Source: Solobacterium moorei (GTDB taxonomy: Bacteria; Bacillota_I; Bacilli_A; Erysipelotrichales; Erysipelotrichaceae). Taken from it: a DNA stretch of 64,000 nt. Shown here in pieces: positions 36,912-63,513 of this stretch. Location: assembly GCF_036323475.1 (NCBI RefSeq), contig NZ_AP028934.1, positions 1,984,001 through 2,048,000 of the forward strand. Reading direction: 5' to 3'. The notes under the pieces were generated by a model that was given only the letters and a program-made list of their open reading frames with translations, had not been told where the DNA came from and ran no database searches. Both the position numbers and the translations under genes were made by a program. Each line of letters begins with the position of its first letter. The first letter of the stretch is position 1.

Positions 36912-37450
36912 GGCTGCTCCTCCTTCTATTGCACAAATAATGAAATTCTCTTCTTGCCTTTTCACCATCCATAGTTACGTTCTATGGTTCTAGGTGATAT
37001 CTCAATTCCAGAGTATTCATTTTCTTACATATAGTGATTTGCACTATACAAACATTAACCCCTTCAGTACTGGTGTATACCTACTATGGGCTCAGCTGAC
37101 TTCTTGTGATAGACCTTTTCCGACCGATGGTACTATAGTTGTTTGAAAACGTCTAGGATTCATCGTCCACAAGACCTCACAGGGTAAGTCACATACCTTT
37201 CTCTCTTCTTTCACAAGTTCCTGATTTACTGTTTTGGTTTTACGTTTACCTTTTGGGCTTCGATTTGTAGAGCAATCTCACCCTCCATTTAGCCTTATAT
37301 CAGATTTCTGTTCGTAACCTCGAAAGAATCGCTACACCACTTCCTTCACCCAAAGCCTCACGGCTTACGGCTTGTGGTTCGCTACGCTTGGCGGTAACTA
37401 CCTACGACTGGACTTTCACCAGTTAGGTTTGCGACATGCCCGTCACACTC

Positions 37451-53146: not shown

Positions 53147-53628
53147 TCAATGAAGAAATTGCAAGAAAAACGCTGAATATGGAAGTGAAAGCTGGAAAAG
53201 TAACAGCAAAACTTCTTTTGACTTTACTCAAGAAACTGATGAAAGAGGCTGAGAAACTCGGAGGACTGGAAAAGCTCGTTAGTAGCAAAGGAAATGAAGT
53301 GAAGCTCAAAGATATGGTTAAAAAGGGACAGCTTGAAGAAATTCCGGTAGAAGAAGCAGAGCTTAAAGAACTTAAAAAGGAACTGAATCGGTATGGGGTA
53401 AAGTTTTCTGTGATGAAAGATAAAGAAAGCGGAAAATACTCCGTATTCTTTCAGGCAAAAGACATGAAAGTGATGGATAAAGCCTTTAAACACGCTCTTG
53501 CAGAATCAGAAAAGAAAACGGAAAGGAAAGAGTCCATTCACAAAAATATTGAGAAGTTCAAGGAGATGGCAAAGAACACTGTTTCTAAAGATAAAGTCAA
53601 GAATAAACAAAAGGAGCAGAGCCTATGA
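53143..53628 (+). CDS. PcfB-family conjugation accessory protein
   Basis: This 161-residue protein starts INEEIARKTLNMEVKAGKVT and has a central EELKELKKELNRYGVKFSVM-like part (AELKELKKELNRYGVKFSVM) and a Lys-rich tail. It matches PcfB of conjugative plasmids and ICEs, whose gene sits directly upstream of the coupling protein. It overlaps the coupling-protein gene by 4 bases. Confidence 0.88.
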   Translation: MINEEIARKTLNMEVKAGKVTAKLLLTLLKKLMKEAEKLGGLEKLVSSKGNEVKLKDMVKKGQLEEIPVEEAELKELKKELNRYGVKFSVMKDKESGKYSVFFQAKDMKVMDKAFKHALAESEKKTERKESIHKNIEKFKEMAKNTVSKDKVKNKQKEQSL

Positions 53629-54194
53629 TAGATAAGATACTAAAAGACATCAAAGGCTTATTCAAAGTGCAAGATAAGGCAAAGTTTCTAAAGCAGAATA
53701 TTCCCTATCTTGCATTTTTCTATGTTGGCAATATCTTTTCTCATCATGTAAGAGCCTATACAGGCGGCGATGTGATAGACAAAATCTTTCAAGGAATATT
53801 AGAGCTTAATACCATGAGCTTTATTCCGAGTATTCATCCAACTGATATTTTAATAGGCGTGGGAGTAGTAGTTTTAATTAAATTTATTGTCTATACCAAA
53901 GGTAAAAATGCAAAAAAGTTCAGACAAGGAAAAGAGTATGGATCAGCCCGATGGGGAACGAGAAAAGATATAGAGCCGTATGTGGATGAAAAGTTCCAAA
54001 ATAATATCTTGCTTACTCAAACCGAGCGATTAACCATGAATGGTAGACCGCCAAATCCAAAGTATGCAAGAAACAAGAATGTGCTTGTTATTGGTGGTTC
54101 AGGCTCCGGAAAGACGAGATTTTATGTAAAACCGAATCTAATGCAAATGCACTCGTCATATTGTGTAACAGATCCTAAAGGATTAACCTCTTAG
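53625..54194 (+). pseudogene. VirD4/TraG coupling protein, 5' part (interrupted by IME)
   Basis: The true part is 186 residues, to the Gly codon at 54180-54182; the last codons read into the inserted element and stop at 54194. It has an N-terminal membrane region (TDILIGVGVVVLIKFIVY) and the Walker A NVLVIGGSGSGKTRFYVKPN, then YCVTDPKG. The remainder is at 62287-63513. Joined at the 6-bp repeat, the frame continues DPKG-TIVIECGK without change and gives a 594-residue protein. It couples relaxosomes to the secretion channel. Confidence 0.92.
54177..54182. repeat. Left attachment core of the IME
   Basis: AAAGGA occurs here and at 62281-62286. Taking one copy away joins GATCCTAAAGGA to ACAATAGTC in frame, giving the DPKG-TIV sequence expected for VirD4 proteins. 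Confidence 0.85.
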
Positions 54195-54236
54195 GGACAG
54201 AGAAAATAATAAAAACTTGGAAAGGAGGTAATTCTC

Positions 54237-55895
54237 ATGTCAAATATGAATAGAACAGGACAAACAGCCCTTTATGAGCGTTTAAGTCGTGATGATGAAA
54301 TGCAAGGAGAAAGCAATTCCATCACAAATCAGAAGCAGCTACTTGAAAATTATGCTAAAAGAAATGGCTTTGTAAATATCTATCACTATACCGATGATGG
54401 AGTGAGTGGAACAACCTTTGATAGAGATGGATTTCAAAAGATGATAAAAGCAGTAGAAGAAAATAAAATTTCTACTGTGATAGTAAAAGATATGAGTAGG
54501 TTTGGCAGAGATTACCTCAAAGTAGGTTTTTATACCGAAATACTGTTCAAAGAAAAGGGAGTAAGGTTTATTGCTATCAATAACGGAATAGATAGTGAGA
54601 AACAAGCAGAAAGCGACTTTACACCATTTCTAAACATTATGAACGAATGGTATGCAAGAGATACCTCAAGAAAAATACAATCCATATTTAGAGCAAGAAT
54701 GGAAGAGGGTAAAAGAGTATCACCAAGCGTTCCATACGGCTATTACAGAAACCCTAAGAACAAACAGGAGCTACTTGTCGATAAAGAGAGTTCAAAGGTC
54801 GTAAAACGCATTTACAGGCTTGTTATAGAGGGATATGGAGTAACACAGATAGCAGAGATACTAACCAAAGATAAAGTCCTTATTCCGTCAGCCTATGCAG
54901 AAATACATTATCCTGAAAATAATCATAGTTCCAAGAAAAGAGGAATAGACGATCCATATTTTTGGACGCCGACAACAGTTGGCTACATTTTGGAAAAAAG
55001 AGAATACATGGGACACACTGTTCTTGGTAAAACAATATGCCTTGATTACAAAACCAAGAAACGCAGAAAGGCGAAAGAAGATGAACTAATTATCTTCAAG
55101 AACACTCACGAAGCCATTATTGATGAAGAAACATGGAATAATGCTCAAAGGTTAAGAAAAACAGTGAGAAGAAGTCCAAAGTATGGAACAACATCAAATC
55201 CACTTACAGGACTTTTAATCTGTGCAGATTGCGGTGGTAAATTAAGTTACAGAGAGCCGGCAGAACATAAAGAAAAGAAATACGATTGTGATTATTGCTT
55301 TGTATGTCAACATTATAGACACAGAAAAGGAACTTGCAGTATCCACTACATCAAATTAAAAACAGTGAATGAAATTCTCTTAAAATCAATTAAAGAAATA
55401 ACCAATTTTGCAAAAGAAGATAAGCAAGAGTTTCTAAAAGTGATGAATAAGTTATCTGATGAAAAAAGAGAAGAAAAGTATCAAGGAGATAAAGAGAAAT
55501 TAGAAAAACTATCATCAAGAAATGCAGAACTAACAACCCTTATTACAAAACTATATGAAGACCATGCACTTGGAAAAATTCCTGTAAAACACTTTGATAG
55601 ATTATTTAATGTTTATGATACTGAGCAACAAGATTTAGAAAAACAAATACAGTATTTTGAGCAAGAAATAGAAAGCTATCATCAGAGAAAAATTGACACA
55701 GATAAGTTCCTAAAAATGATAGAGAAATATACAGACATTGAGGAACTGACAGTACCAATGATAAATGAGTATATAGAAAAAGTTGTAGTCCATGAAGCCA
55801 CAGGGGGAAGAAAAGGAAAAGACAGAAAACAACAAGTTGATGTGTACTTTAATTTTATTGGCAAGTTTGAAGTGTCACAAGAAGAACCTAAATAA
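54237..55895 (+). CDS. Large serine recombinase (TnpX-like)
   Basis: This 552-residue protein has a resolvase domain with catalytic Ser in ALYERLSRDDEMQGES, IVKDMSRFGRDYLKVGFYTE, and FLNIMNEWYARDTSRKIQSI. A recombinase domain follows, then a zinc ribbon (LICADCGGKLSYRE ... CFVCQHYRH ... GTCSIHYI) and a DUF4368-like C-terminus with a coiled coil. It would insert and excise the element at the AAAGGA core. AAGGAGG precedes the ATG. The 552 residues are shorter than TnpX. Confidence 0.95.
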   Translation: MSNMNRTGQTALYERLSRDDEMQGESNSITNQKQLLENYAKRNGFVNIYHYTDDGVSGTTFDRDGFQKMIKAVEENKISTVIVKDMSRFGRDYLKVGFYTEILFKEKGVRFIAINNGIDSEKQAESDFTPFLNIMNEWYARDTSRKIQSIFRARMEEGKRVSPSVPYGYYRNPKNKQELLVDKESSKVVKRIYRLVIEGYGVTQIAEILTKDKVLIPSAYAEIHYPENNHSSKKRGIDDPYFWTPTTVGYILEKREYMGHTVLGKTICLDYKTKKRRKAKEDELIIFKNTHEAIIDEETWNNAQRLRKTVRRSPKYGTTSNPLTGLLICADCGGKLSYREPAEHKEKKYDCDYCFVCQHYRHRKGTCSIHYIKLKTVNEILLKSIKEITNFAKEDKQEFLKVMNKLSDEKREEKYQGDKEKLEKLSSRNAELTTLITKLYEDHALGKIPVKHFDRLFNVYDTEQQDLEKQIQYFEQEIESYHQRKIDTDKFLKMIEKYTDIEELTVPMINEYIEKVVVHEATGGRKGKDRKQQVDVYFNFIGKFEVSQEEPK

Positions 55896-56016
55896 CTTAT
55901 ACAGGAAGAACTTGATGAAATAGATGGGCAACGAAAAAAGAAACACGAATACAATTATATATAATTGGAAGAGGTAAAAGAAAAGACGAAAATTGGTAGT
56001 ATGTAATGATGGATTT

Positions 56017-56053
56017 TTGACGATTTTTGAAGAATATGATAAAATATTATAAT
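56017..56053 (+). promoter_or_regulatory. Candidate promoter of the MATE leader
   Basis: TATAAT at 56048-56053 has weak -35 candidates upstream (TTTTGA at 56025-56030, 17-base spacing). It lies 20 bases before the leader-peptide ATG. Confidence 0.45.
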
Positions 56054-56072
56054 ATATGGAAAGGGAATTGTT

Positions 56073-56162
56073 ATGAGAATTTATTTAAGAAATCATCCTA
56101 AGAACAAACTTAACTCTGTACAAATGAAACCGATGAAACATTGTACAGAGTATAGCAAATAA
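56073..56162 (+). CDS. Leader peptide ORF upstream of the MATE pump (29 residues)
   Basis: ATG 56073 has GGAAAGGGA upstream. The product is basic (MRIYLRNHPKNKLNSVQ...) and ends at 56162. Its codons contain both arms of an 11-bp inverted repeat and one arm of a second, so ribosome position would decide which RNA hairpin forms. This is the plan of translation-dependent attenuators. Confidence 0.5.
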   Translation: MRIYLRNHPKNKLNSVQMKPMKHCTEYSK

Positions 56163-56296
56163 ATTACATTTAAGATTTCATCGGGAAATACAAAAAATTA
56201 GGTCATTTAGTTGGCTTTGTTTTTGTGTGCATTTCTCGATATATAAATAGAATGTAAAAGGCTATAGGCAATGTTTTGTCTGTAGCCTTTTGTTTT
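56113..56296 (+). promoter_or_regulatory. Putative transcription attenuator before the MATE gene
   Basis: Stem 1 is ACTCTGTACAA (56113-56123) with TTGTACAGAGT (56141-56151). Stem 2 is CCGATGAAA (56130-56138), lying in the loop of stem 1, with TTTCATCGG (56176-56184). They cannot both form fully. CGGGAAAT (56182-56189) can also pair with ATTTCTCG near 56231-56238. A terminator, AAAAGGCTA/TAGCCTTTT with TTGTTTT (about 56256-56296), follows before the pump gene. Confidence 0.6.
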
Positions 56297-56395
56297 ATAA
56301 ATTATTGAACAAAAGGCAGATACTATTTTGTATTTATGCCTTTTTTTGTTGCATAAATACAGAAAATAAAATATTGAGAAGTGGAGAAATTTTAA

Positions 56396-57748
56396 ATGAA
56401 CGAAAGCAGAATAAAAATTTTGAAGGAAGAAAATATTAATACAGCACTTTTTAAATTAGGTATGCCTATGGTTATCAGTTTGTTGGTAGCTGCCTTATAC
56501 AATGTTGTGGACACATATTTTGTGTCCGGACTTGGTAAAGAAGCAGTAGCTGCTGTTTCCGTTGCCTTTCCGATTCAACTTATTTTTTTAGGGATAGGAT
56601 TAACATTTGGTGCAGGAGCAGGCTCTTATATATCAAGGCTACTTGGAGGAAATAATAAAAAAGAAGCAAGTATTGTAGCGACAGTTGCTCTACTAACAAG
56701 TGCAATTTTAGGGATAGTTACAGCTATTGTATTGTTTTGCTATTTAGATGGCGTTTTGAAATTTATGGGAGCCATACCATCTATTATTGAAATCTCTAAG
56801 TCTTATACAGGGATATTCATAGTAGGTGGCATTTTGGGTGCAATAAATGTAACGGTTGGTAACTTAGCTGTTGCACAAGGGGCTGCTAAAATTTCTTTGA
56901 AAGCCATGATTTTAGGCTCTATATCAAATATGATTTTAGATCCGATATTCATATTCGGACTTAATTTAGGAGTGAGAGGTGCAGCTATTGCGACACTCAT
57001 AGCCAGAGTGATAACCAGTCTAATGTATCTCATTTACTTTGTAGGAGATAAAAATTTAATTGAGATAAAGTTATCTAACTTTAAACCAACAGTTGCAATT
57101 TACAAGGAGATATTAAAGATAGGTATATCCATGTTAATACTTCAAATTCTACAAACAATATCTATCAGCAAAATATCTTATGCAGCGTCCTTTTATGGAG
57201 AAGAAGCAATAGCTGCAATGGGTATTGTTCTTAGGATTGTAACATTAGGAACAAATGTTGTATTCGGATATATGAAAGGACTTCAACCGTTAGCTGGATT
57301 TAATTACGGAGCTAAGAATTATGAAAGAGTGAGAGAAGCTATAAAGGCAAGTGTTAAATGGACAAATGTATTTTGTGTAGTGTGGACTGTGATGGTTTAT
57401 ATATTTGCACCAAGTATATTATCTATATTTGGGACTGATGAAAATGTATTAAATATAGCAGTGCTGGCATTACGAGCAGCCGTAATTATGTTTATAACAT
57501 TTGGTTTTCAGTTTACTTACTCTACCTTGTATTTGTCTACAGGAAAGGCGTTAGGGGGAGTATTTCTAAACTCATTGCGACAAGGAATTGTGTTTATCCC
57601 TATCATTTTATTGTTGCCTAAACTTATGGGATTAAATGGTGTTATATATGCTCAAACAATTTCAGATTTGATAACAACAATCATCACAATTCCTTTTGCT
57701 ATTAGCATTCATAAAAAATTAAGATTAGCAATAAAAAACAATTTGTAA
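56396..57748 (+). CDS. MATE-family multidrug efflux pump
   Basis: This 450-residue protein has twelve predicted helices in two MatE repeats. The first begins FKLGMPMVISLLVAALYNVV and has VDTYFVSGLGKEAVAAVSVA; the second includes LQILQTISISKISYAASFYG. NorM/DinF-type MATE pumps export cationic drugs in exchange for Na+ or H+. It is the likely cargo gene of the IME. Expression may be controlled by the leader upstream; specificity is unknown. Confidence 0.93.
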   Translation: MNESRIKILKEENINTALFKLGMPMVISLLVAALYNVVDTYFVSGLGKEAVAAVSVAFPIQLIFLGIGLTFGAGAGSYISRLLGGNNKKEASIVATVALLTSAILGIVTAIVLFCYLDGVLKFMGAIPSIIEISKSYTGIFIVGGILGAINVTVGNLAVAQGAAKISLKAMILGSISNMILDPIFIFGLNLGVRGAAIATLIARVITSLMYLIYFVGDKNLIEIKLSNFKPTVAIYKEILKIGISMLILQILQTISISKISYAASFYGEEAIAAMGIVLRIVTLGTNVVFGYMKGLQPLAGFNYGAKNYERVREAIKASVKWTNVFCVVWTVMVYIFAPSILSIFGTDENVLNIAVLALRAAVIMFITFGFQFTYSTLYLSTGKALGGVFLNSLRQGIVFIPIILLLPKLMGLNGVIYAQTISDLITTIITIPFAISIHKKLRLAIKNNL

Positions 57749-57820
57749 TTAGGAATTACATCTGTTGATTAAAAAATAAGGAGGCATCTAAGTGTAGAAA
57801 TAGCTAAGGAGGTAATGTGA

Positions 57821-57889
57821 ATGAGCGTATATTCATATTTTTTAAATAGATTATGGTTGATAATGCCTTTTTGGTTCGTTTTTATATGA
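57821..57889 (+). CDS. Hydrophobic leader peptide (22 residues)
   Basis: ATG 57821 has a perfect AAGGAGG 8 bases upstream, very strong for so short a frame. The product is Trp/Phe/Leu-rich (MSVYSYFLNRLWLIMPFWF...). It is followed by alternative hairpins and a terminator before the sigma-like gene. It is probably a regulatory leader. Confidence 0.5.
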   Translation: MSVYSYFLNRLWLIMPFWFVFI

Positions 57890-57900
57890 ATATTTTCTTG

Positions 57901-57992
57901 AACAATTAAATAATCTAATAACAATAAGAGTTAATTTAATTGTTATTTTCGGAGGACTTTTTACGTCAAAGTGTAGAAGTCCTCCTTTTTTA
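57901..57992 (+). promoter_or_regulatory. Putative attenuator before the sigma-like gene
   Basis: AACAATTAAAT (57901-57911) can pair with ATTTAATTGTT (57934-57944). AATAACAAT (57917-57925) can pair with ATTGTTATT (57939-57947). The two stems share sequence and exclude each other. A strong terminator, GGAGGACTT (57951-57959) with AAGTCCTCC (57977-57985) and TTTTTT, follows. Confidence 0.6.
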
Positions 57993-58037
57993 TTCTCAAA
58001 AAGCAAAACAGAGAACTTAAAAAAGGAGGATAACTAA

Positions 58038-58451
58038 GTGGCTAAAGAATATTACCTTTATGTGAAAGGCAAAGCCGTACCTGTAAGCGAAGAAGTCTAC
58101 AAAGCCTACTGGAAGATAACAGAGCATGAAAAGTATCTCCAAAGAAAAGATTGGAAGTATAATGTTATATCATTTTCGGTACTGGATTATGACGGACACT
58201 TTGTAGATAACATCATAGATGAAAAAATAGACTTAGAAAAAATTGTAGAAGTAAAAATGCAAATTGAAGAACTTCATAGAGCATTAAATACTCTAACAAA
58301 AGAAGAACAAGAGTTAATGGAAGCCATCTTCTACAGAGAAGAAAGTCTAAGGTCAATCGGTAAAAAAGAAAAAGTAAGCTATCAAGCAATTGGAAAAAGG
58401 AGGGACAAGATTTTAGAAAAACTAAGAGAGATATTAAAAGATAAAATCTAA
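58038..58451 (+). CDS. Sigma-70 region 4-like protein
   Basis: This 137-residue protein ends with a sigma region 4-type helix-turn-helix (LNTLTKEEQELMEAIFYREE, SLRSIGKKEKVSYQAIGKRR). The N-terminus (KEYYLYVKGKAVPVSEEVYK) is the form seen in Tn1549/Tn4451-type elements. It probably regulates element genes. GGAGG lies upstream. Confidence 0.8.
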   Translation: MAKEYYLYVKGKAVPVSEEVYKAYWKITEHEKYLQRKDWKYNVISFSVLDYDGHFVDNIIDEKIDLEKIVEVKMQIEELHRALNTLTKEEQELMEAIFYREESLRSIGKKEKVSYQAIGKRRDKILEKLREILKDKI

Positions 58452-58463
58452 GAGTAGAAAGAG

Positions 58464-58502
58464 AAAGGCTATTTACCTATAAAAAGGTATTTAGCCTTTT
58501 TC
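58464..58502 (+). terminator. Terminator after the sigma-like gene
   Basis: AAAGGCTA pairs with TAGCCTTT, with an inner ACC/GGT, followed by TTTTT. Confidence 0.7.
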
Positions 58503-58534
58503 GATACAAAAACATTAAAACGGAGGAAATGACA

Positions 58535-58930
58535 ATGAAAGAATTAGATAATGTAATCAGCCAATTAGAAAAAGAAACTAAGAAAAAAGAACAAGCCGAA
58601 AACAAGATTAAGTTATTAAAACAGAAAAAAAGCAAACTGAAAAGAAGTGCCGATACAAAAAGAAAAGTAGAGAAAGGTGGAGTATTTGAAAAGTTTGAAA
58701 GACAAATAACAGGTGCAGAAGAAAATACAGATAATGATTTAATCTATGCCTTTTTAGACTATGTGTTTTCAGATAACAGATACAGAGAAAAATTAAAGGA
58801 ACTAACTGAAAAGCATTTTAGCGAAAAGGGAATATCTTTAGAAGAAACTTCATATACTGAAAATGAAAACGATGGGATAGATGATGAAGAACCCCAAAAG
58901 GACTTGGAAGAATTTGAAGATGAGATATAA
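58535..58930 (+). CDS. DUF3847-family mobilization-associated protein
   Basis: This protein of about 131 residues has an N-terminal coiled coil (LDNVISQLEKETKKKEQAEN, IKLLKQKKSKLKRSADTKRK) and then an acidic tail (DDEEPQKDLEEFEDEI). DUF3847 genes regularly precede MobA/MobL relaxase genes in Gram-positive elements, so it may be a relaxosome accessory factor. ATG 58535 has GGAGG 9-10 bases upstream. Confidence 0.78.
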   Translation: MKELDNVISQLEKETKKKEQAENKIKLLKQKKSKLKRSADTKRKVEKGGVFEKFERQITGAEENTDNDLIYAFLDYVFSDNRYREKLKELTEKHFSEKGISLEETSYTENENDGIDDEEPQKDLEEFEDEI

Positions 58931-58965
58931 GCAGTCGGAAAAATTAAATAAGAAAATTAGAGCAT

Positions 58966-59000
58966 AGCAGAGTGAAATCATTTTAACACTTTGCTTTTTT
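58966..59000 (+). terminator. Terminator after the DUF3847 gene
   Basis: AGCAGAGTG pairs with CACTTTGCT (one mismatch) and is followed by TTTTTTG. Confidence 0.65.
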
Positions 59001-59035
59001 GTTGATTTGAAAAATCTACAAAAAACAAAGTCCAC

Positions 59036-59215
59036 AGGGGTTAAGGGGGAGTAGCCCCCTTGAACAAATAAAAATGCTTTAGCGTTTTTGTTTCCTTAGC
59101 GGAACGTATAGCTTTCCGCAGGAACGCAAGGCACCGAATGTAGTCGGTGTATCTTTGCGCCCTTTGAAAAAGGGAGCGAAGATACTTCCGACATATAGAG
59201 ATAAGAAAACATCTA
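59036..59215 (+). other. Candidate oriT of the IME
   Basis: This 300-base non-coding gap precedes the relaxase gene. It holds AAGGGGG/CCCCCTT (about 59040-59060), CACCGA/TCGGTG (about 59132-59148), and a hairpin running from GTATCTTTGCGCCC to AAGATAC. TTTGCGCCCT (59154-59163) resembles the MOBQ nick region TAAGTGCG/CCCT of RSF1010. The predicted nick is between 59159 and 59160. The relaxase is of the matching MobA/MobL type. Confidence 0.6.
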
Positions 59216-59239
59216 AATAGAATATCAAAAGAAAGTAAA

Positions 59240-59286
59240 TGAGCAGATGGGAAGAAGAAAGAAAAATAACCTATCTGCTTTTTATG
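59240..59286 (+). terminator. Hairpin before the relaxase gene
   Basis: GAGCAGAT pairs with ATCTGCTT around a purine-rich loop and is followed by TTTT. It may insulate the relaxase gene from upstream transcription. Confidence 0.45.
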
Positions 59287-59336
59287 TGTCTAAAAACAAT
59301 TTACTGAATGTGAAAAAGGAAAGGAGCATACCATAA

Positions 59337-60977
59337 ATGGAAGCAAAAAGTTTGCATACCCATGTAGATATAGTTACAAGGTCAAAAGGAGCAAGCGTAA
59401 TTGCGAAAGCTGCATATAACGCAAGAGATAAATTGAATGATGAACACTATGGAAAAGTTCATGACTATTCTAAAAAAGAAGACCTTGTATTTTCAAAAAT
59501 ATTTCTGCCGGAACATATCTCAAAAGAGTTTTCTGATAGAGAATACCTATGGAATAGTGTAGAGAAAATAGAGAAAAGTAAAAACTCTCAGCTTGCAAGA
59601 AATTTACTTTTTACACTTCCAAGAGAATTAAATGAAGAAGATAGAATAAGGCTCATTAGTGAATTTATAGAGGAAAACTTTACTTCAAAAGGAATGATAG
59701 CGGACTGTAATATCCATAATCCCTTAGCAAGCGATAACGAAGAACAACCACATGCCCATATCCTACTTACTCTTAGAGAAATTGATAGTGAGGGAAAATG
59801 GAAACCCAAATGTAGAAAAGAATATATCCTTGATGAAAACGGAGAAAAGATAAAACTTAAAAGTGGAAACTATAAATCAAGAAAAGTAAATCTAAATGAT
59901 TGGAATGAACCTGACAAGGCAAAAAAGTGGAGAGAAGATTTTTCTAAAAAGGCAAATGAGTATTTAGAGAAAAATGGTATAGATAAAAGAATAGATCCAC
60001 GCACCTTTGAAGAACAAGGAAAAGAAGAACTTCCACAAATACATTTAGGAACAGCAAGCTATCAGATGGAGAAAAAAGGAATTAAAACCGAAAGAGGAAA
60101 TCACAACCGAAAGATTATAGCTTTTAATTTGGAGTTTAAGAAATTAAAAGAAGAACTATCAAAACTTACTTTTTGGATAGGATCATTAGTTGGAAAACTT
60201 CAATCCAAGTATGATGAATATAAGCAAGAGAAAAAAGACGAACTGGAGAACAAAGCAGAACTCTTTAATCTCTATGAATACATTTCTATCTATCACGACT
60301 TACAGGGAGAAAAAGCCAAAGAATTAAAGCCTTATGCAAGCAATAAAAAGATGGCTGCTGACCTTAGAAGATTTTCAAAAGCAATCTATTATCTTAGAGA
60401 TAATAAGCTACAAACCATAGCAGACTTGCAAGAAAAAATAGGCACTCTTCAATCAGAAAATAAGAACATCCATCAAGAAGTTAAAGTTAAAAGCAAAAGA
60501 ATAGAAAACTTAAATAAGTGTTTTACTTATGCAGATATTATCAAAGACAACAAGGCAACCTACGATGAATGGAACAATAAAACTCTATTCAAAGATAGCT
60601 TTTACAATTCCCATAAAGAGGAAATAGACAAATACAAAAGAGCAAGGGCAATCCTTGAAAAAATAACAGGCTCATCTGCGATTAAGAGCAAAGATTGGCA
60701 AAAAGAAATGAAAAGCCTTGAAGATGAAATTACTAAGCTCAATAAAAACTCTCAAGCTATCAAAGAAGAATACGAAAATATTAACCATATCAAATATGCG
60801 GTAAAGATAGTCAATGATGATTATGGAATAGATTTATCTATAGAGATAGACAAGGCAATTAAGCGAGGAGAAAAGCCAAGTGTAATTGCACAGATTAAAA
60901 AGTACCAAGAGCAACAGGAGAAATACGAAAAGAAAAAAGAGAAAACAAAAGATTATTACAGAAATGAGGAAAGGTAG
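59337..60977 (+). CDS. MobA/MobL-family relaxase
   Basis: This 546-residue MOBQ-type relaxase has an N-terminal nuclease domain with LHTHVDIVTRSKGASVIAKA, the likely catalytic Tyr in AAYNARDKL, and the metal-binding EQPHAHILLTLREID. A long coiled-coil C-terminal half follows (ADLQEKIGTLQSENKNIHQE). No helicase or primase domain is seen. It would nick at oriT so the element can be mobilised by a resident ICE. Confidence 0.92.
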   Translation: MEAKSLHTHVDIVTRSKGASVIAKAAYNARDKLNDEHYGKVHDYSKKEDLVFSKIFLPEHISKEFSDREYLWNSVEKIEKSKNSQLARNLLFTLPRELNEEDRIRLISEFIEENFTSKGMIADCNIHNPLASDNEEQPHAHILLTLREIDSEGKWKPKCRKEYILDENGEKIKLKSGNYKSRKVNLNDWNEPDKAKKWREDFSKKANEYLEKNGIDKRIDPRTFEEQGKEELPQIHLGTASYQMEKKGIKTERGNHNRKIIAFNLEFKKLKEELSKLTFWIGSLVGKLQSKYDEYKQEKKDELENKAELFNLYEYISIYHDLQGEKAKELKPYASNKKMAADLRRFSKAIYYLRDNKLQTIADLQEKIGTLQSENKNIHQEVKVKSKRIENLNKCFTYADIIKDNKATYDEWNNKTLFKDSFYNSHKEEIDKYKRARAILEKITGSSAIKSKDWQKEMKSLEDEITKLNKNSQAIKEEYENINHIKYAVKIVNDDYGIDLSIEIDKAIKRGEKPSVIAQIKKYQEQQEKYEKKKEKTKDYYRNEER

Positions 60978-61078
60978 GATATTTTAATTTCATATGTAAC
61001 TGTCAAGTGTTGTAGCTAATGTTATAATTAAACTAATATTTTATTTTAGAAATTTCAAAAATAAAATTTTAAAATGTA

Positions 61079-61109
61079 TTGACCTGTCCATTGGGGGCAG
61101 TGCTATCTT
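61079..61109 (+). promoter_or_regulatory. MerR-type promoter with 19-bp spacer
   Basis: TTGACC (61079-61084) and TATCTT (61104-61109) are 19 bases apart. The spacer carries the near-palindrome CTGTCC...GGGCAG. Over-long spacers with a central dyad are typical of promoters activated by MerR proteins, and a MerR gene follows. Confidence 0.78.
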
Positions 61110-61132
61110 TTAATTAAAGGAGGTGGCAAACC

Positions 61133-61981
61133 ATGTTAAGAAATGAAATTCAAAACAAAACAGGTTTAACAAGAAAAGCAATTGAATATTATGAGGAGAA
61201 AGGACTTATAAATCCTCAAAAAACTGAAAACGGTTATAGAGATTATAGCGATAATGATTTAGAGGTTTTAATTAAAGTATCTTTATTTAGAAAACTTGGA
61301 ATTAGTGTAACTGAAATAGAAGATTATCTATCTACTGGTATTAGTTCATTATCTTCTGTTTTAAGAAGAAAGCAACATCAATTAGATGTTGAAGAAAAAA
61401 GAAAAGAAGTTCTTGAGCTTGTAGTAAAAGGTGAAAGTCAGGAACTGATAAATGAAAAAATTAAATTGATTGAAGCAGAAGAATCAATCTATGTAAGATT
61501 AGAGAGATTATTTCCCGGATATTTTGGACAAATGTTTTTTGCAGCGTATCAACCATTTTTAAATGAATCATTAGGAAAAGATGAGGAAGAAGCATTTGAA
61601 AAATATGTAGATTACTTAGATAATTTACCATCACTTCAGTTAAGTAAGGAAGAGCAAGACTATATTGAAAAGATAAGTTCTACTTTTGATATGCAGACAC
61701 TAAACAAAGTCAATGAAGATAAAATTAACGCTATTGAAAATGTTGAAGAATGGCTAAAAGAAAATGATAATGCTATTTCTCAATATGAACAATATAAAAA
61801 TAGTGAAGAATATCAAAATAGCTTAATGAAGAAAATTCAAGATAAATTGCAAAACTTTATGAAGGACAACAAGTATTATGAAATCGCAATTCCTCTAATT
61901 AGAAAATTCAGCAAGAGTTATGACGAATACTATGAGAAATTGCTTAGGGCAAATGAAATATATCTTGATATGAAAAAATAA
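61133..61981 (+). CDS. MerR-family transcriptional regulator
   Basis: This 282-residue protein has an N-terminal MerR HTH (NKTGLTRKAIEYYEEKGLIN, GYRDYSDNDLEVLIKVSLFR) and dimerisation helix. A long helical C-terminal domain follows, of the ligand-responsive multidrug type (LFPGYFGQMFFAAYQPFLNE). It probably activates its own gene and perhaps others in the element in response to a drug. AAAGGAGGTGG precedes the ATG. Confidence 0.9.
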   Translation: MLRNEIQNKTGLTRKAIEYYEEKGLINPQKTENGYRDYSDNDLEVLIKVSLFRKLGISVTEIEDYLSTGISSLSSVLRRKQHQLDVEEKRKEVLELVVKGESQELINEKIKLIEAEESIYVRLERLFPGYFGQMFFAAYQPFLNESLGKDEEEAFEKYVDYLDNLPSLQLSKEEQDYIEKISSTFDMQTLNKVNEDKINAIENVEEWLKENDNAISQYEQYKNSEEYQNSLMKKIQDKLQNFMKDNKYYEIAIPLIRKFSKSYDEYYEKLLRANEIYLDMKK

Positions 61982-62009
61982 TAAAGTTACTTAAATTTAT
62001 GGTCAAACA

Positions 62010-62042
62010 TGAACAGTAAATCAAGAAGATTTACTGTTTTTT
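62010..62042 (+). terminator. Terminator after the MerR gene
   Basis: AACAGTAAATC pairs with GATTTACTGTT around a 5-base loop, followed by TTTTC. Confidence 0.85.
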
Positions 62043-62071
62043 CTTTGCCCAAAAGATGGAAAGGAGGACTT

Positions 62072-62236
62072 ATGGAAGAAGAAAAAAGAGGAACAAAAGC
62101 ACCGCCTAACAAACAGTTAATTATGGATATTGGAAAGACAAAATATACTGTAAACCTACATTTCAAGCAAGGAACAGGCGAAACATACAAAGATAAAATA
62201 CTAAAACTAATTAAGAGGGAAGCAGAAAAGATATAA
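62072..62236 (+). CDS. TnpW-like transposon protein
   Basis: This 54-residue protein starts at ATG 62072 with AAAGGAGG upstream. Its sequence (MDIGKTKYTVNLHFKQGTGE, TYKDKILKLIKREAEKI) follows the TnpW pattern of Tn4451-family elements, where it is linked to the large serine recombinase. Its molecular role is unknown. It lies right before the element's right end. Confidence 0.8.
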   Translation: MEEEKRGTKAPPNKQLIMDIGKTKYTVNLHFKQGTGETYKDKILKLIKREAEKI

Positions 62237-62280
62237 ATTTATCAAAGAAATTTTGTTTATGTCCTTGACAAATCTTCCCA

Positions 62281-62286
62281 AAAGGA
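62281..62286. repeat. Right attachment core of the IME
   Basis: AAAGGA, the second copy of the core seen at 54177-54182. The coupling-protein frame resumes at 62287. Confidence 0.85.
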
Positions 62287-63513
62287 ACAATAGTCATTGA
62301 GTGTGGCAAGATGCTTGAAGATAATGGCTATGAGATAAAAATCTTAAATACCATCAACTTCAAAAAGAGTATGAAGTATAATCCATTCGCCTATCTCAGA
62401 AGTGAAAAAGATATACTCAAATTAGTGCAGACAATCATTGCAAACACTAAGGGTGAGGGTGAAAAAGCAGGCGAGGATTTTTGGGTCAAAGCCGAAAAAC
62501 TCTACTATACGGCTCTTATCGGCTATATCTTCTATGAAGCTCCAAAAGAAGAAAAGAACTTTGCAACACTACTGGATATGATAGATGCTTCAGAAGTCAG
62601 GGAAGATGATGAAACATATATGAATCCCATAGACAGACTCTTTGAAGCACTTGAAAAGAAAGAGCCTACGCATTTTGCGGTCAAGCAATATAAAAAGTAC
62701 AAACTTGCTGCTGGAAAAACAGCAAAGTCTATTCTTATTTCATGTGGTGCAAGGCTTGCACCTTTTGATATTCAAGAGCTTAGGGACTTGATGAAAGAAG
62801 ATGAACTTGAGCTTGATACACTTGGAGATAGAAAGACAGCACTCTTTGTTATTATCTCTGATACAGATGATACTTTTAACTTTGTGGTGTCTATTATGTA
62901 CTCGCAGTTATTTAACCTACTTTGCGATAAGGCAGATGATGAATACGGGGGAAGATTACCTGTTCATGTAAGGTGCTTGCTTGACGAGTTTGCCAACATC
63001 GGCTTAATTCCTAAATTCGAGAAATTGATTGCAACAATCCGAAGCAGAGAGATTTCAGCAAGCATTATTTTGCAAGCACAATCTCAGCTAAAGGCAATCT
63101 ACAAGGATAATGCAGATACCATTGTAGGCAACTGCGATAGCACTTTGTTTCTTGGTGGGAAGGAAAAGACCACACTAAAGGAGCTATCTGAAACACTTGG
63201 TAAAGAAACCATAGATCTGTATAACACATCGGAAACACGATCCAATGCCAATAGCTATGGACTGAATTACCAAAAGACAGGAAAAGAGCTGATGAGTCAA
63301 GATGAGATAACGGTTATGGATGGCAGTAAATGTATTTTTCAGCTTCGAGGTGTAAGACCGTTTTTATCAGATAAATTTGATATTACAAAGCATAAGAATT
63401 ACAAGTTACTTGAAGATTTTAATAAGAAAAATGCCTTTGATATTGAGGAATATATCAAGCGAAAAGGGAAAGTAAAATTAAATAGAGAAACGGTTATTAC
63501 AAGAGTGCAGTAA
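62287..63513 (+). pseudogene. VirD4/TraG coupling protein, 3' part (interrupted by IME)
   Basis: This part encodes 408 residues and starts TIVIECGKMLEDNGYEIKIL directly after the core repeat; ATG 62311 could start a fragment. It has the Walker B VRCLLDEFANIGLIPKFEKL and ASIILQAQSQLKAIY of VirD4/TraG. The P-loop is in the 5' part, so neither fragment alone can be functional. Excision of the IME would restore the gene. Confidence 0.92.

Follow-up and report, generated by a model that had tools for sequence, protein, structure and literature searches.

The uup RNA motif, reportedly defined by Weinberg et al. in 2017, is modelled in Rfam (RF03060) as one hairpin, of no known function; an association with ABC-F (Uup-type) genes is not part of the model. 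In C. difficile it is situated upstream of a gene for a Uup-family ABC ATPase (PMC11477304). The closest described systems to the locus considered here are leaders which control resistance and efflux genes. In Streptococcus the mef(E)/mel leader regulates a mobile-element gene for drug efflux by transcriptional attenuation, employing a leader peptide (MTASMRLR) with a +X+ motif, stem-loops and an intrinsic terminator; its R7/R8 stem was rejected as a second terminator (PMC4335068). The bmrB leader of bmrCD in B. subtilis is a longer ORF, which holds alternative stem-loops and mediates drug-dependent readthrough into a multidrug transporter (PMC4191407). Likewise, in the tlrB (yxjB) leader of B. 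subtilis, macrolide stalling at R-Y-R controls a terminator (PMC6851288), while the cplR and vmlR uORFs (MRI and MIN) belong to leader-controlled ABC-F resistance genes in Bacillota (PMC10201436) and msrD constitutes a further precedent (PMC10314930).

The window, that is, the whole stretch of DNA analysed, comprises 64,000 nucleotides of Solobacterium moorei (contig NZ_AP028934.1, positions 1,984,001 to 2,048,000). Upstream of a gene for a MATE family efflux transporter it contains a match to RF03060 which extends over the entire model (1-48/48) and scores 65.8 bits (E 1.6e-10) against a gathering threshold of 36.8 bits. We propose, with a probability of roughly 0.8, that this region attenuates transcription in a ribosome-dependent manner through a two-step RNA relay, in which stalling of the ribosome by a drug would turn on the pump, and that the Rfam hairpin corresponds to the coding protector hairpin of this longer device. 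The features concerned are as follows.

56017..56045, plus strand: candidate promoter, TTGACG / 17 nt / TAAAAT with extended TG, from a consensus scan
56058..56066, plus strand: Shine-Dalgarno of the leader ORF, GGAAAGGGA, read from the sequence
56073..56162, plus strand: leader peptide ORF of 29 codons, MRIYLRNHPKNKLNSVQMKPMKHCTEYSK followed by the stop, from ORF translation and frame-specific selection among homologues
56100..56108, plus strand: basic +X+ codons K10-N11-K12, predicted stall site, from K/R conservation
56104..56151, plus strand: Rfam RF03060 uup RNA
56114..56123, plus strand: arm 1 of the protector hairpin S1, CUCUGUACAA
56130..56138, plus strand: loop segment 2' of S2, CCGAUGAAA
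56132..56144, plus strand: antiterminator strand E3, 5' side of AT1, GAUGAAACAUUGU, from duplex energy and pair counts
56141..56150, plus strand: arm 3 of the protector hairpin S1, UUGUACAGAG, from S1 pair counts on the alignment
56151..56156, plus strand: AT1 extension UAUAGC, pairing with GCUAUA at 56261-56266, from a permutation test
56176..56184, plus strand: segment 4' of S2, partner of 2', UUUCAUCGG, 3' of the leader stop
56256..56297, plus strand: intrinsic terminator T1
56268..56280, plus strand: 3' side of AT1, GCAAUGUUUUGUC, within the 5' arm and loop of T1, from duplex energy and pair counts
56285..56294, plus strand: 5' side of AT2, GCCUUUUGUU, T1 3' arm and U tract
56308..56317, plus strand: 3' side of AT2, AACAAAAGGC, T2 5' arm, from pair counts
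56311..56347, plus strand: second intrinsic terminator T2
56396..57748, plus strand: regulated MATE family efflux transporter gene (profile TIGR00797, 201.8 bits over cut-off)

The described systems differ from this arrangement in several respects. The mef(E)/mel leader has 8 codons of unrelated sequence and no S2 has been described for it (PMC4335068); bmrB has one terminator, located inside its 53-codon ORF, and serves an ABC exporter rather than a MATE pump (PMC4191407). For tlrB, with a 9-codon leader, no antiterminator was found and translation attenuation is added (PMC6851288), whereas cplR and vmlR have three-codon consensus uORFs of unrelated sequence, with translational attenuation added in cplR (PMC10201436). 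A relay disarming two terminators in turn was not found in the literature searched. The kind of mechanism is thus already known, while the relay and the role assigned to uup RNA are new, and the functional reading of this RNA family is apparently the first in that literature.

Homologues were collected with a degenerate hairpin pattern against one genome per species, which gave at least 120 stretches, supplemented by 7 from viral contigs and 5 obtained by searching whole genomes with the Rfam model; together these sources provided at least 92 distinct homologues. Some pattern matches (L014, L031, L045, L052, L073, L091 and others) arose by chance, being unrelated sequence without a leader peptide. 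A survey of 392 genomes of the phylum with the Rfam model added just one homologue, so that the family appears patchy. A blast search of plasmids and phages with the leader DNA gave no match, and a tblastn search of plasmids with the leader peptide gave chance-level matches only.

In the window a short ORF with its ribosome binding site precedes the regulated gene, and the evidence for its translation is evolutionary. Nearly all homologues encode a peptide of the form ...[K/R]xxSVQxxxMKHC[T/A]E. Among closely related leaders, single-base codon differences in the stretch 5' of the hairpin are synonymous and nonsynonymous in a ratio of 138:88 in the leader frame, whereas the two alternative frames give 64:165 and 39:172; the mean BLOSUM62 score of the differing codons is +0.50 in the leader frame and about -1.0 in the alternative ones. 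The start codon is ATG in 78 of 81 distinct leaders, and 89% have a Shine-Dalgarno of at least 4 bases compared with 26% in shuffles. On these sequence comparisons the leader ORF is translated and its frame is under protein-level selection. Deviations from the common frame were also observed. In Beduini massiliensis (L005:1475-1560 and L029) the same hairpin, together with its downstream partner, lies before a Mef-like MFS gene; its reading frame differs (...MALYKGEDETLYRA) and AT1 is absent, while in L107 another frame is used for the 5' arm of the hairpin only.

Lysine or arginine occupies the three +X+ positions in 65, 74 and 90% of the 81 leaders; the motif K/R-X-K/R, represented in the window by the macrolide arrest motif K10-N11-K12, is found in 74% of leaders, its strict form being missing from a quarter. 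This enrichment, together with a geometry the same as that of trp-type attenuators, could in principle mean that the stall senses a cue other than a drug, such as low levels of charged Lys or Arg tRNA or generally slow translation. We regard this as quite improbable, since the leaders lack a long run of a single codon, that of the window having only K-N-K, and since the downstream genes are of the resistance type, not biosynthetic, in all classified cases. Among the matches listed, with identical copies and the window itself included, the genes 3' of the leader are 90 ABC-F, 17 MATE and 5 MFS. Their ABC-F representatives are ribosomal-protection-like (NF000355, just above or just below cut-off), the MATE representatives score to TIGR00797, and the MFS representatives are related to Mef(A)/(B), scoring well under the curated cut-offs for these. 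Most homologues of the uup RNA hence do precede ABC-F genes, although the window itself has a MATE gene, and the occurrence of all three families behind the same leader makes MATE one of three cargo types. The MATE protein of the window is not a MepA equivalog by profile search, and its best relative in the PDB is BH2163.

The structural organisation of the leader was analysed on an alignment of 44 diverse leaders, with shuffle controls that ignore relatedness. The leader region as a whole folds with a z of -6.5 relative to shuffles, and S1, S2, T1 and T2 are each stable when folded alone. The sequence-only reading had described a 29-codon ORF containing both arms of one stem and one arm of a second stem with its partner after the stop, the arms being interlocked and followed by a terminator, and all of this holds. 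S1 has a folding energy of -11.7 kcal/mol (-3.1 +/- 2.0 for shuffles) and a compensatory U-A to C-G change in 8 rows of the alignment; 99.8% of its cells are paired, an invariance that is partly by construction because the search pattern fixes much of S1 and E3. The covariation rests on positions free in the pattern, together with T1, T2 and 4', which lie beyond it. S2, of almost equal energy (-12.1), is paired in 91.6% of cells, so that the arms of both stems are conserved in relatives; segment 4' is conserved outside any ORF and has an own pairing score of 21.5 compared with 13.1 +/- 2.4 for shuffled downstream DNA. Taken together, S1 and S2 are 95.9% paired, as against 29-44% when slid by 1-3 columns. 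Pairing of S2 segments with their own rather than other partners across homologues gave no discrimination, a comparison made uninformative by the near-identity of these partners.

Intrinsic terminators were found twice between the leader and the MATE gene, so that the terminator noticed in the sequence-only reading is real (T1, z -7.3, conserved with covariation in homologues) but not single, the second (T2, -12.5 kcal/mol, z -3.8) having been overlooked along with the antiterminator pairings and the RF03060 match. Two terminators are found in 96% of homologues, with 2.08 per leader compared with 0.00 in shuffles. A consensus terminator scan of the window listed no terminator at all, missing T1 because of the A-U pairs that lengthen its stem and T2 because of its bulge. 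In two leaders from Erysipelotrichaceae, preceding an MFS and an ABC-F gene (L004 and L133:1470-1720), apparently one terminator only is present, suggesting that T2 and AT2 may be an added tier.

The link between hairpin and terminators is provided by two antiterminator pairings, of which the first is exclusive with T1 and overlaps the leader ORF. E3 is complementary to T1 over 13 consecutive bases (56132-56144 with 56268-56280), and in 87 homologues the AT1 duplex has a mean energy of -22.1 kcal/mol compared with -12.4 +/- 3.5 with shuffled T1. The AT1 extension fits its own partner better than 2000 of 2000 permutations among homologues, one group having UAUAGC:GCUAUA and another CUUAAUC:GAUUAAG; similarly, in Paenibacillus (L023) GCGUUGU stands opposite ACAACGC, the pairing following the change in sequence. 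AT2, paired in 94.3% of cells, has GAUCUUUUGU opposite ACAAAAGAU in L003 and GGUCCUUUGU opposite GCAGAGGACC in L087, and alone has 5 pairs with double changes. On the 44-leader alignment AT1 and AT2 form standard pairs in 96.7% of cells (42-61% in slid versions), with two-sided changes at 7 pairs in 29 cells, a result reached in 0 of 500 shuffles. Since all these features of the window are conserved by homologues, they are far beyond chance. In other MATE cassettes, too, the attenuator architecture is conserved, as it is in many leaders before ABC-F and MFS genes, and such cargo is consistent with resistance to ribosome-targeting drugs.

The hairpins S1 and S2, described in the sequence-only reading as mutually exclusive, are not exclusive by pairing, because their interlocked arms have 0 nucleotides in common; the conserved exclusion is that of S1 and S2, both of which overlap AT1, against AT1, which contacts T1. 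With spacers of 6, 2 and 25 nt the coexistence of S1 and S2 as an H-type pseudoknot would be geometrically possible. It could still be argued that within the same attenuator S1 and S2 are true alternative states, S2 being the ON structure and AT1 secondary, as their energies are nearly equal, nested folding gives one or the other, and S2 forms with arm 1 blocked and T1 complete. Yet the spacers permit the pseudoknot, no base is shared, and S2 alone cannot stop termination because it contacts neither T1 nor T2; we consider this variant unlikely.

The preferred reading, in which AT1 disarms T1, was also explored by constrained folding. When RNA polymerase has barely cleared the T1 loop, the partner of E3 is arm 1 in the absence of a ribosome and T1 when arm 1 is blocked; a ribosome exactly on the stop codon leaves E3 partly free. 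Once T1 is complete, however, it is the minimum-energy structure even with arm 1 blocked, S2 being formed at the same time, so that the ON state must be kinetic; a kinetic decision is usual for attenuators.

Alternatively, the region could be a ligand-binding riboswitch, with the uup RNA hairpin serving as a small aptamer for a drug or metabolite and the leader ORF being incidental. Rfam lists the family as a structured cis-regulatory RNA with highly conserved loop bases, and a 2024 review groups it with riboswitch-like motifs of unknown function while itself stating that there is no evidence for riboswitch function (PMC11477304). The conservation of the loop is explained by its pairing with 4' and T1 and by the MKHC codons, and purifying selection acts on the ORF 5' of the hairpin, outside the Rfam motif, which makes an aptamer highly improbable. 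More probably, the uup RNA is a hairpin that both codes for peptide and donates the antiterminator strand. It would belong to a widespread mobile attenuator that disarms its two terminators one after the other in a domino (arm 1, E3, T1, T2), has a protector which may be a capped-loop pseudoknot, and serves three unrelated resistance families.

The computational support for the attenuator consists of a translated leader, the conservation with compensatory changes of S1, S2, T1, T2, AT1 and AT2, and the association with resistance-type genes. We envisage that when no stalled ribosome is present, because it has finished and gone or was never there, the leader would fold into S1, segment 4' would cap the S1 loop (S2), and T1 and T2 would form, ending transcription before the pump gene. 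A drug would presumably halt the ribosome at about codons 10-13, covering arm 1. As the ribosome edge is 15-16 nt past the P-site codon (PMC6851288), stalling on codon 11 (P site) would place this edge at about 56118-56119 and open arm 1. The freed E3 with its extension (56132-56156) would then pair with the emerging 5' arm and loop of T1 (AT1). Deprived of its partner, the 3' arm of T1 would in turn bind the 5' arm of T2 (AT2), such that no terminator would form and the MATE pump would be transcribed. With arm 1 covered, S2 could form as well, competing with the 5' half of AT1, which it overlaps. Which way the device switches, where the ribosome stalls, that S1 and S2 form a pseudoknot and that a ribosome-stalling drug induces the pump are all inferred. 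A macrolide-like drug class is suggested by the K/R-x-K/R cluster, which would put the ribosome edge on arm 1, and macrolides are indicated by the Mef-like cargo and the +X+ precedents of mef(E) and tlrB, although lincosamides or pleuromutilins would be compatible with the ABC-F cargo as well.

The MATE Shine-Dalgarno (56381-56386) is about 33 nt past T2 and within no relay helix. Since neither terminator overlaps it, the device is probably a transcription attenuator, like trp, mef(E) or bmrB, rather than a translational one of the erm type, to which it had been likened; the earlier reading as a ribosome-sensing attenuator was of the right type but incomplete as to the switch.

The orphan uup RNA is thereby given a concrete and testable function, its conserved bases representing pairing with a distant terminator as well as codons. 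Resistance-type genes (ABC-F, MATE and Mef-like) would be inducible and silent until exposure, in a predicted range including Lachnospiraceae, Peptoniphilus, Anaerococcus, Erysipelotrichales, Paenibacillus and others, many of them gut and skin bacteria, and for such inducible genes the phenotype would be mispredicted from gene presence alone.

The MATE cassette of the window is enclosed by an integrative element (54177-62290) which splits a CD1115-family VirD4 gene into 53625-54194 and 62311-63513. AAAGGA is present at both ends of the element, and the VirD4 frame becomes continuous again when the empty site is read through. Within the element are:

54237-55895: large serine recombinase
59337-60977: MobQ relaxase

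Homology of the window to the MATE loci of Anaerococcus and Peptoniphilus often extends from about 56015 to about 57705 with 80-96% identity, beginning near the candidate promoter, which in the consensus scan scored no higher than the shuffled count. The rest of the element is absent from those contigs, which suggests that promoter, leader and pump move together as one cassette. The element also encodes a MerR-family regulator with a long C-terminal half (61133-61981), which could be a second, protein-level sensor. Elsewhere in the window, on the minus strand at 37059-37367, there are two Rfam matches to group II intron domains (RF02001 and RF01998).
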